Source: Clostridium sp.
Lineage (GTDB): Bacteria > Bacillota_A > Clostridia > Lachnospirales > Lachnospiraceae
Assembly (NCBI GenBank): GCA_023666975.1
Contig: JAMPAW010000030.1
Location: forward strand, 12,722-29,640
DNA: 16,919 nt
Direction of reading: 5' to 3'
Shown here: one piece after another, positions 5,261 to 16,235 of the stretch
Layout: the number at the start of each line of letters is the position of its first letter
How positions within the stretch are numbered: the first letter of the stretch is position 1
Notes under the pieces: generated by a model
What the model was told of the DNA's origin: nothing
What the model saw: only the letters and a program-made list of their open reading frames with translations
Databases searched by the model: none
Made by a program: the position numbers and the translations under genes

Positions 5261-5498
5261 AAAAAAAGCCGCCTCCTTTTCGCACTTATTCATTGAGTAC
5301 GACAAGTGGTGACTGTACACTCTCCCGTGTGTGTCATGTTTTGAAGCAGTTCATAACTTTCACACGTCATCTCCCTTCAACCGGGATGGTTATTCGTACA
5401 GTGACTTGCCGTCAGTTTTCTAACTTGACATTCGCTCCACGGAAAAACCTGCCGTATAGGCAGCAACCTCACGCTTCACAGCTATCAATGTCACAGCA
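5261..5498 (-). promoter_or_regulatory. Long structured 5' leader of the S10 operon
   Basis: From the inferred start site near 5498 to the rpsJ ATG is about 238 nt with no credible ORF. Visible pairings on the transcribed strand: TGACATT (5493-5487) with AATGTCA (5432-5426), enclosing the perfect hairpin CTGCC-TATAC-GGCAG (5463-5449); ACTTGC near the 5' end with a downstream GCAAGT; ACTGTAC with GTACAGT further down; CGTGTG with CACACG; and CACTT/AAGTG just before the RBS. Some of these compete, which would suit a regulatory switch. A ribosomal-protein-binding autoregulatory leader is plausible, but the ligand is not identifiable by eye. Confidence 0.6.
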
Positions 5499-14446: not shown

Positions 14447-14583
14447 TATCCGATTCCTATACACTCATAACAGATACGGCTTGCCTTGTTCTTAATATCC
14501 GAAAATCCGTTTTGGCCAAGGCCAATCAAAATCAGCACAACCGCTGTAACGAGTATTCCCTTTCTAATCATTTTCACCTTCAT
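14446..14583 (-). CDS. CD1871A-family CXXC membrane peptide
   Basis: A 45-aa protein: a short basic N-terminus (MKVKMIRKG), one transmembrane helix (about 9-23), and a C-terminal tail ending RICYECIGIG with the pair C38-x2-C41. The ICxECIG ending is the hallmark of the small 'CD1871A family CXXC motif-containing' proteins of Clostridia, usually beside a TlpA-like redoxin and a 4Fe-4S membrane protein, exactly as here. It probably relays thiol electrons in that complex (inference). ATG at 14583 is 9 nt after AAGGAGG and overlaps the tlpA 3' end by 20 nt; a second ATG at 14571 is possible. Confidence 0.88.
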   Translation of the reverse strand: MKVKMIRKGILVTAVVLILIGLGQNGFSDIKNKASRICYECIGIG

Positions 14584-15232
14584 GCGGTACGCCCTCCTTC
14601 GCTCCATTTTCCGCCAATGCCGCCTCAATCGCCTGTTTATACTCCTCATACTGTTCGTCCGCTTCGCCTGCACCCAGATAAATCATCTTGGCAGTGCCGT
14701 CTTTGCCGATTACCAGTGTGTAAGGAATCCCGTCTGAGGGATATTTCCTGCATATCGTGCCCTCTGTATCATAAGCAATGGGAAATGTATATCCATTTTC
14801 GGAAATAAACTGATTCACCGTCTCCTTGTCTTCCATACAATTAACGGCAAGAATTGCAATTTTCTGTCCATACTCACCATACAGCTTTTCAAATGCCGGC
14901 ATTTCCCTGACACACGGGCCGCACCATGTCGCCCAGAAATTCAGCAATACCACCTTTCCACTCTGCTCCGAAAGCCCAAATGTACCTCCGTCCGCTGTCT
15001 CTGCGGTAAAATCCGGAACACGGTCGCCCTCCAAAATCTCCTGATACGCAGCCGGTTCTTCCTGCCCCGAACCGGAAGAAGACACACGGTTCCCACCGGC
15101 CGCCTCCTGCCCGTCTCCACAGCCTGCCAATATAAATATAACAAAAAAGCCAAGCAAAATCCCCATCTTTTTTCTTCTCGCTACAGCGTTTCGCCGTTCC
15201 TGCAGCAGCCCATTCTCATCTACATATCCCAT
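14564..15232 (-). CDS. TlpA-family thioredoxin-like lipoprotein
   Basis: A 222-aa extracytoplasmic thiol-disulfide oxidoreductase. Hydrophobic segment 23-37 ends in the lipobox L-A-G-C, Cys38; a Gly/Ser-rich tether follows; the TlpA/AhpC-like fold spans about 66-210 with the active site W103-C-G-P-C107, cis-proline P170 (GIPYT), and extra cysteines C132 and C161. The n-region before the lipobox is unusually long (22 residues, MGYVDENGLLQERRNAVARR). The ATG at 15232 has GGAG 9 nt upstream, but an internal Met23 would give a standard signal peptide. The gene is first of three overlapping genes; upstream is the hairpin element and then the XRE regulator. Confidence 0.92.
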   Translation of the reverse strand: MGYVDENGLLQERRNAVARRKKMGILLGFFVIFILAGCGDGQEAAGGNRVSSSGSGQEEPAAYQEILEGDRVPDFTAETADGGTFGLSEQSGKVVLLNFWATWCGPCVREMPAFEKLYGEYGQKIAILAVNCMEDKETVNQFISENGYTFPIAYDTEGTICRKYPSDGIPYTLVIGKDGTAKMIYLGAGEADEQYEEYKQAIEAALAENGAKEGVPHEGEND

Positions 15233-15249: not shown

Positions 15250-15487
15250 CCTATAACTTTTTATTAGGCGATTGCGAAACTCCTAATTTCCAAAATCCAG
15301 TTGTGCAATATAGACAATATTGCAAACAGGGTATTGGGGAGCCGTCGGTACTTAGGTGCTGTATTTTAGCACCTTATGTACCGTTACGAGCGACACATAG
15401 CGCAAGCGTGCCCAGTTGCAATTTGTCTATATTGCACAACGGATGCCTTAAAAAACATGAGTTTCGCAATTACCTATAACTTTTTAT
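15250..15487. mobile_element. MITE-like hairpin element with 15-bp flanking direct repeats
   Basis: CCTATAACTTTTTAT occurs at 15250-15264 and again at 15473-15487, flanking 208 bp. Just inside are inverted ends ATTGCGAAACTC (15271-15282) and GAGTTTCGCAAT (15459-15470). Further in, GTTGTGCAATATAGACAA (15300-15317) pairs perfectly with 15423-15440, and ATTGCAA with TTGCAAT; at the centre CGGTAC...GGTGCT pairs with AGCACC...GTACCG. The whole element therefore folds into one long hairpin. There is no ORF. If the flanks are a target duplication, the empty site would place the XRE stop only about 30 nt from the tlpA ATG. It also contains the separate dyad TGCAATAT-AGACA-ATATTGCA (15304-15324). Confidence 0.75.
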
Positions 15488-15488
15488 G

Positions 15489-16235
15489 CTATCTGAAAAA
15501 CCACTTATAATCCACATATAAGATCCGGCACATTTCATGCGCTTCCGTATTAATTTCCTTCAATTGTTCATCGTCCCTTAACAGCTTCTTTGTCTCCATG
15601 TCCGTCAGCAGATGCTTTCCCTTCTTATCGTAGACATATATGGTTTCAAAATCTGCCCCGCTTCCGTTCCACTCAATCTGCAGCAAACCCTCCTCGCGCT
15701 GCACCCGGCACATCAACACCTGATTATAGCAGCCCAGATAGCTGATATCAAACCACTCCGACATCACTAAATCCGCAAGGTAAAAGACGGCCTCTTCGTC
15801 AGCTTCCAAACGGTACGGATACTGATAGCCTTCCTCCCCCAAATTTTCCGATAAATTATCCGTAAAGCCAAACTGCTCGATTCCGCTTTGGAACCGCTTT
15901 TCACTCTCCTGTTTTGCATCATACCACAAAATGCTCCAGATGACACATAAAATAATGAAAATCCCCCCAAAAAGCAGCGCTCCCCGTTTTACATATTTGC
16001 TAAATTTTCTCTCCCGGTCAATCTTTTTTACGATATCCACATCTTCTTTCAGCATGTTATCCAGGGAGACACCAAAGCGGTTGCTCATCTCTACCAACGT
16101 CTGCAAATCAGGATAGCTTTTTTCCTTCTCCCAATTGGAAACCGTCTGCCTCGTCACCGCAAAAATAGAGGCAAACTCCTCCTGTGTCATCTCCTGTCCT
16201 TTTCGGATATGCAAAATGCTTTCCCCTATCTTCAT
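15489..16235 (-). CDS. Membrane-anchored XRE-family transcriptional regulator
   Basis: A 248-aa protein with an N-terminal Cro/C1-type HTH (about 1-62; IRKGQEMTQEEFASIFAV then TRQTVSNWEKEKSYPDL), a charged connector, one transmembrane helix (about 85-105, GALLFGGIFIILCVIWSIL), and an outside domain of about 140 residues with no fold I recognise. The exodomain has three cysteines (C169, C176, C236). ATG at 16235 is 7 nt after GGAGG. Transcription continues toward tlpA, so it probably controls that module, responding to a signal outside the membrane (inference). GACTAGTC (16252-16259), a perfect 8-bp palindrome just upstream of the RBS, could be an autoregulatory site. Confidence 0.87.
   Translation of the reverse strand: MKIGESILHIRKGQEMTQEEFASIFAVTRQTVSNWEKEKSYPDLQTLVEMSNRFGVSLDNMLKEDVDIVKKIDRERKFSKYVKRGALLFGGIFIILCVIWSILWYDAKQESEKRFQSGIEQFGFTDNLSENLGEEGYQYPYRLEADEEAVFYLADLVMSEWFDISYLGCYNQVLMCRVQREEGLLQIEWNGSGADFETIYVYDKKGKHLLTDMETKKLLRDDEQLKEINTEAHEMCRILYVDYKWFFR

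Follow-up and report, generated by a model that had tools for sequence, protein, structure and literature searches.

The window, i.e., the whole stretch of 16,919 nucleotides that was analysed, contains on its minus strand the genes of an HTH_3 regulator and of a tlpA-like thiol-disulfide oxidoreductase, between which a large non-coding hairpin is located (Table 1). Open reading frames of 80 aa or longer overlapping positions 15265-15476 are absent, i.e., there is no transposase gene inside. The hairpin is represented by nested inverted repeats, namely, outer arms at 15265-15289 and 15452-15476 with a complementarity of 80% and the perfect 18-bp inverted pair of the middle stem, framed by two exact copies of the 15-bp repeat CCTATAACTTTTTAT (15250-15264 and 15473-15487). 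The same inverted repeats and flanking copies had been described, at these positions, in a first-pass annotation of the sequence. The plus strand of the element folds with -98.9 kcal/mol, compared with -51.4 ± 4.1 for shuffled sequences (z = -11.6; none of 200 shuffles folded as well), and the strand in the sense of the tlpA mRNA with -100.8 (z = -8.1).

Table 1. Features of the regulator-tlpA junction (positions are those of the window)
Feature	Position	Strand	Basis
tlpA-like thiol-disulfide oxidoreductase, downstream of the insertion	14564..15232	-	Pfam AhpC-TSA/Redoxin; NCBIfam ResA-like, below cut-off
Left target duplication TAACTTTTTAT	15254..15264		Exact repeat; length from family comparison
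Whole 212-bp mini-element (MITE)	15265..15476	+ (strand of best core fold)	Ends from other copies; fold
Left terminal inverted repeat TAGGCGATTGCGAAACTC	15265..15282	+	Common to G001 copies; 16 of 18 letters match the right end of the IS
Middle stem, left arm GTTGTGCAATATAGACAA	15300..15317	+	Helix 3, double changes in 10 of 18 pairs
Structured conserved core	15325..15417	+	Covariance model R1, 100.3 bits; the window copy is among the R1 training sequences
Core hairpin P2, CGTCGGTACTTAG-stem-CTTATGTACCGTTACG	15343..15388	+	Apical stem exchangeable between the CTTA motifs
Core mini-hairpin P3, GC-GCAA-GC, GNRA tetraloop	15400..15407	+	Hairpin insert of about 57 nt here in longer copies
Middle stem, right arm	15423..15440	+	Perfect pair with the left arm; covariation analysis
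Right terminal inverted repeat, reverse complement TAGGTAATTGCGAAACTC	15459..15476	-	Matches the right end of the autonomous IS in every letter
Right target duplication TAACTTTTTAT	15477..15487		Exact repeat; family comparison
HTH_3 regulator, upstream of the insertion	15489..16235	-	Pfam HTH_3

Comparison with other copies of the family set the element at 212 bp, with ends TAGG...CCTA, and its target duplication at 11 bp. The repeat appears to be 15 bp long because the element itself ends in the extra CCTA, which meets the same letters in the target. Accordingly, the insertion with flanking repeats proposed in the first-pass annotation stands, while its size of 208 bp is corrected to 212 bp and its duplication of 15 bp to 11 bp; the remark that the duplication is long is withdrawn, 11 bp being not unusual for the family. 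After removal of the element and one duplicate, the computed spacer between the regulator and tlpA is 33 nt, close to the earlier estimate of about 30 nt, and the tlpA ribosome-binding site is left in place, as had been stated. No family of the Rfam 15 covariance models matches the window element at the gathering score; at a permissive threshold, three matches were obtained, the best of which, with an E value of 1.6, belongs to a Caenorhabditis snoRNA family.

Search for the element with blastn gave 86, 46, 22 and 45 matches, these being pieces on both strands and not copies, in four genomes reached via a core pattern: an uncultured Clostridium MAG (G001), a MAG labelled Bacteroides sp. (G002), Roseburia inulinivorans DSM 16841 (G003) and a Lachnospiraceae MAG (G004), respectively. 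The Bacteroides sp. label of G002 (locus L011), or its binning, may be wrong. G001 contains 86 occurrences of the end motif TTGCGAAACTC and none of its reversed control. In total, 49 distinct paired copies were read from G001, which together with the window copy gives 50. Among 40 paired copies with flanks, one of which (L087 1940) is probably a false pair, most begin with TAGG, end with CCTA and have a duplication of about 11 bp, the best duplication length being 11 in 16 copies, 12 in 7, 10 in 6, 13 in 4 and shorter in 7. A duplication of 9-13 bp with a score of at least 6 was found in 33 of the 50 copies, while in 1000 re-pairings of the flanks the number averaged 1.07 and never exceeded 5; a clear duplication is absent from the other 17 paired copies.

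Copies fall into size classes of 135, about 205-212, 262-266, 290 and about 345 bp, which, judged by eye, differ by hairpin modules at two tips, the apical loop of P2 and the tetraloop of P3. Unpaired terminal inverted repeats in the G001 loci examined look like truncated, degenerate or contig-edge mini-elements, and no long element was found there; of the others, L105 is a terminator-like palindrome and L104 probably matches by chance. A 39-bp remnant in G001 (L047, 2280-2318), located upstream of the regulator, consists of little beyond two facing IS-type ends and represents an extreme internal deletion.

The regulator was searched for in 200 genomes of the family of G001, and the best two were G001 (73% identity) and G192 (54%), the only two relatives in which the regulator-tlpA pair was found. 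In both of them, the regulator, tlpA and the following gene are kept, and the 212-bp hairpin is absent from the junction; in G192 the gap between the two genes is 8 nt. The G001 junction (L047) is not a pristine empty site, because a different small insert is present, of about 80 bp and located between exact 12-bp repeats ATTATTATAGGA. It represents another small insertion at this position, unrelated to the 212-bp element.

The sequence GGYRATTGCGAAACTC is present in 40 of the 397 genomes of the family, control matches being found in none, and in several genomes it adjoins a transposase gene. The corresponding IS is represented in G323 by six copies of 1744-1745 bp with duplications of 10-12 bp and the ends TAGGCGTTTGCGAAACGC and TAGGTAATTGCGAAACTC. 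One copy with a 12-bp duplication was found in G092, and one with the exact 11-bp duplication CTATTACACTA in R. inulinivorans. Core copies of R. inulinivorans are located at seven distinct loci, six of which have IS-type ends on both sides (two mismatches at most), the seventh being cut by a contig end. In the G001 mini-element L081, both IS ends are reproduced letter for letter (18 of 18 each).

The transposase of this IS consists of 487 aa and contains PF05598 (DUF772; 54 bits), DDE_Tnp_1 being just below the cut-off. It resembles the IS1182 family (NCBIfam NF033551) in the DUF772 and DDE-type matches, and the IS, of about 1.75 kb, has terminal inverted repeats; it differs in its NF033551 score of 82.8 bits, compared with a cut-off of 270. 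Because the score is well under the curated cut-off, the element is named only "IS1182-like". A full-length copy of the transposase was not found in the mini-element-rich genomes G001, G002, G004 and G192, which makes the direct link to the IS weaker for these genomes. MITE-rich genomes without a full autonomous partner are common. Among 16 genomes searched, an intact transposase frame and core copies are known to occur together only in R. inulinivorans and G362; the IS of G362 has no clear duplication, and decayed IS copies in L154 and L156 are without duplication. In G323, two IS1182-like copies are arranged in tandem (L150, 936-4434), with CTATAGTAAT at the borders.

Elements with the same IS1182-like ends and unrelated interiors were also found, namely, fold-back elements of 131-334 bp in G180 (L160, L161, L232-L236) and of 151 bp in G103 (L158, L159), with duplications of about 9-14 bp at several loci. 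Because these elements use the same ends, the core is not needed for mobility by the IS ends. An IS4-type partner was rejected, as none of the five PF01609 places in G001 has a matching terminal inverted repeat on both sides (two mismatches at most).

The hairpin is almost certainly a MITE, a non-coding unit of 212 bp with the ends TAGGYRATTGCGAAACTC, probably moved in trans by the DUF772/DDE transposase of an IS1182-like IS. It has terminal inverted repeats, consistent target duplications, dispersed copies, relatives without the element and ends shared with an IS, and carries no internal transposase. The non-autonomous insertion suggested by the first-pass annotation is supported: tens of other copies with their own flanking duplications, and junctions without the hairpin in the same gene order, turned up in relatives as had been expected, and a transposase-bearing IS with matching ends and duplication length was found. 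Most likely, the transposase of an IS1182-like element located elsewhere binds the 18-bp ends and moves the 212-bp unit. Its insertion into the AT-rich site between the regulator and tlpA duplicated 11 bp and widened the spacer from 33 to 256 nt. The hairpin is predicted to be co-transcribed in the tlpA leader and could in this way alter the expression of tlpA or the stability of its mRNA.

The location of the hairpin 32 nt upstream of the tlpA start, its strong fold on the tlpA-sense strand and the orientation of six of the seven core copies of genome G157, located between genes running in the core's direction, would fit a fixed cis-regulatory leader of tlpA. Such a leader is very improbable: the orthologous junction in G001 and G192 is without the hairpin, the window copy is oriented opposite to the gene, no promoter-like site was found, and the sole terminator-like site is on the plus strand, opposite to the strand of the genes. 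Between co-directional genes, copies of the MITE lineage are co-oriented in 18 cases and opposed in 33 (p = 0.049), and copies elsewhere in 26 and 21 cases (p = 0.56). A cis-leader role of the core itself, attractive in G157, was rejected, as 62 loci outside G001 and G801 comprise 26 of the same orientation, 21 of the opposite and 15 mixed; L247, L250, L268 and L302, at contig ends, as well as L300 and L309, were left out of this count. Inconsistent orientation to genes speaks against a fixed leader and is what would be expected of a selfish repeat, being treated in the available text of PMC11109978 as a sign of a selfish element.

The interior of the MITE is a conserved folded core, also found outside this MITE type, and not a deleted transposase. 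A total of 94 copies were extracted, 52 of which belong to the short class (48 copies of 188-216 nt and four others), and 25 of these, chosen to cover genomes, were aligned (alignment A2). The consensus contains 51 pairs with double changes in 29, the copies compared being related and the pair counts not independent events; shuffled controls gave 12.0 ± 2.0, none of 500 reaching 29, and 4-12 were obtained with slid structures. Folded as RNA, the plus strand exceeds the minus strand in stability in 47 of the 52 copies (mean difference 9.6 kcal/mol), and with DNA parameters in 43 of 52 (mean 3.0); the numbers of G-U and A-C cells in the strand test are 57 and 18. Of the 62 copies with a simple tip, 59 have a P3 capped by a GNRA tetraloop, and the P3 stem covaries; the remaining 32 of the 94 are expanded copies, a few copies not recognized by the search pattern, and false end pairs or unrelated interiors. 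Non-palindromic sequence is also conserved, namely, the strands flanking P2 and the P3 hairpin with its GNRA loop.

The covariation, the strand-specific fold and the GNRA tip point to selection on one folded strand, as RNA or ssDNA. The element is near-palindromic overall, unrelated fold-back elements have the same ends and the copies are related, so that the covarying stems might also have been kept only via self-correction of the palindrome (hairpin-mediated gene conversion), in which case no folded strand would be under selection. This origin of the pairs is unlikely in view of the preference for one strand under RNA and DNA parameters, the excess of G-U over A-C cells and the conservation of the non-palindromic P2 flanks and P3 loop.

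A covariance model of the 93-nt core (R1) was built from 24 copies, including that of the window. At an E value of 0.001 or better, R1 matched at least 11 of 391 genomes of the class, the stricter filters used making this a lower bound, and at 1e-6 it matched 20 of 31 genomes of one genus; G801 contains at least 60 matches. No exact IS1182-type end was found in six R1-positive genomes (G157, G184, G211, G265, G026 and G031). Ten core loci of other genomes gave no core match in Rfam at the gathering score, only a lysine riboswitch being recognized elsewhere in L246. In the 20 copies of G801 examined (L318-L337), the cores are near-identical, and the ends, judged by eye, are not of the IS1182 type. 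The outermost flanks in G801 resemble, also by eye, recurring hairpins in both orientations.

At 30 loci of G157, G184, G211 and G577, the core is enclosed in arms specific to the locus: the mean complementarity of a locus's own arms is 13.4-18.5, compared with 5.8-6.0 between loci. Exceptions are L248 of G577, which pairs poorly (8), and two left arms of G184, which are alike (score 17). In G184, G211 and G577, close pairs of cores in opposite orientation occur about 0.1-1 kb apart (G211 C18:818583/819641; G577 C11:128233/129355).

For L280 of G211, an empty site was worked out. The insertion of 183 bp includes both arms and has no duplication, and the site is empty in G577, with a flank identity of 93-94%. 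Both flanks were found in 25 other genomes, 24 of which, including G577, lack 157-219 bp there, and no match better than E 0.01 was found for the left arm and tail of L280 elsewhere in 31 genomes. Insertion of the core into pre-existing palindromes was rejected for this one locus, both arms being absent from the empty site. The 25th genome, G780 (L303), contains its own copy of the core, diverged in sequence and carrying unrelated arms, at the L280 junction; this reflects either two separate insertions into the junction or an old copy that has been lost from the other genomes. The intergenic junction of L280 and L303 may be an insertion hot spot.

These results give as a lead a mobile core with several vehicles. 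In a reading compatible with the MITE, the core is a selfish structured module of RNA or ssDNA that has been taken up by several vehicles, with IS1182-like ends here and other ends in G801, and in other lineages inserts without duplication, with self-complementary arms specific to each copy. This is a serious possibility, though short of probable. It agrees with the wide distribution of R1 matches, including the six genomes without an exact IS1182-type end, with the locus-specific arms at the 30 loci, with the duplication-free insertion at L280 and with the arm and tail of L280 found nowhere else in the 31 genomes. However, a single empty site was worked out, and G780 has a core copy at the same junction; the core could instead be ancient, with fast-evolving arms under selection for pairing, or the G211 copy could derive from an unsampled genome. 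Furthermore, arms are not unique everywhere, as the G184 pair and L248 show, the ends in G801 were judged by eye only, and the G180 and G103 fold-back elements use the same IS ends without the core. A fuller statement is proposed still more tentatively: the 93-nt core, with no match in Rfam 15, may be a mobile structured RNA or ssDNA that spreads in the class to which G001 belongs (presumably Clostridia) without depending on any single transposon, as a passenger behind IS ends that differ by lineage and, in at least one lineage, without duplication and with mostly unshared arms.

Other sources of the element were rejected. A viral origin was tried with the 17-mer of the middle stem, which occurs in three IMG/VR contigs in surroundings without the element, and with two core patterns, which gave zero IMG/VR matches; a search for a plasmid source gave one chance-level match (E 0.7). 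Nine INPHARED records match; the six examined are unannotated faecal scaffolds marked UNVERIFIED, and the matching scaffolds are most likely bacterial DNA. By title or the start of the abstract, no description of the element was found in the open-access literature on MITEs, IS1182, Lachnospiraceae, Roseburia, Butyrivibrio or structured-RNA repeats, and among the matches listed for GCGAAACTC as text in open-access papers, all are unrelated by title.

According to the available text of PMC10969869, bacterial MITEs are short and non-coding, have AT-rich intergenic targets, terminal inverted repeats shared with an IS, target duplications and a stable folded transcript. The element is alike in all these features and differs in its conserved core found outside the MITE type and in hairpin modules swapped at fixed tips. 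Pneumococcal BOX elements, as presented in part of PMC3049150, resemble it in organization: they are dispersed repeats built of modules, with internal modules that can be exchanged and a predicted RNA fold that is conserved. The element described here differs in having apical hairpins as its modules and an IS1182-like IS as its likely vehicle. The bcr repeats of the Bacillus cereus group, in the portion of PMC6542083 available, are interspersed repeats of 100-400 bp with mobile features; a single strain may have as many as 130 copies of bcr1. Mobile or repeat candidates of the MRSC-65-2 type (PMC11109978, available text) are similar in their covarying motifs and many copies per genome, while MRSC-65-2 differs in having a single long stem; the main text of that paper contains no mention of Roseburia, Butyrivibrio or Lachnospiraceae.

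The insertion of a MITE is an event of a known kind, and what is added here is the core, with a modular strand-specific fold, unmatched in Rfam 15 and present in several kinds of elements. A puzzling operon hairpin is explained as a mobile insertion and tied to a core for which one genome alone has at least 60 matches. Should the core have more than one route of movement, a folded nucleic-acid module would have outlived its transposon vehicles, which would be rare. Locus-specific palindromes, of which one or more came in together with the insertion, pose the testable question of the origin of the arms.

Elsewhere in the window, a ribosomal leader of the S10-Clostridia type is located at positions 5406-5487 on the minus strand, ahead of a ribosomal protein operon.
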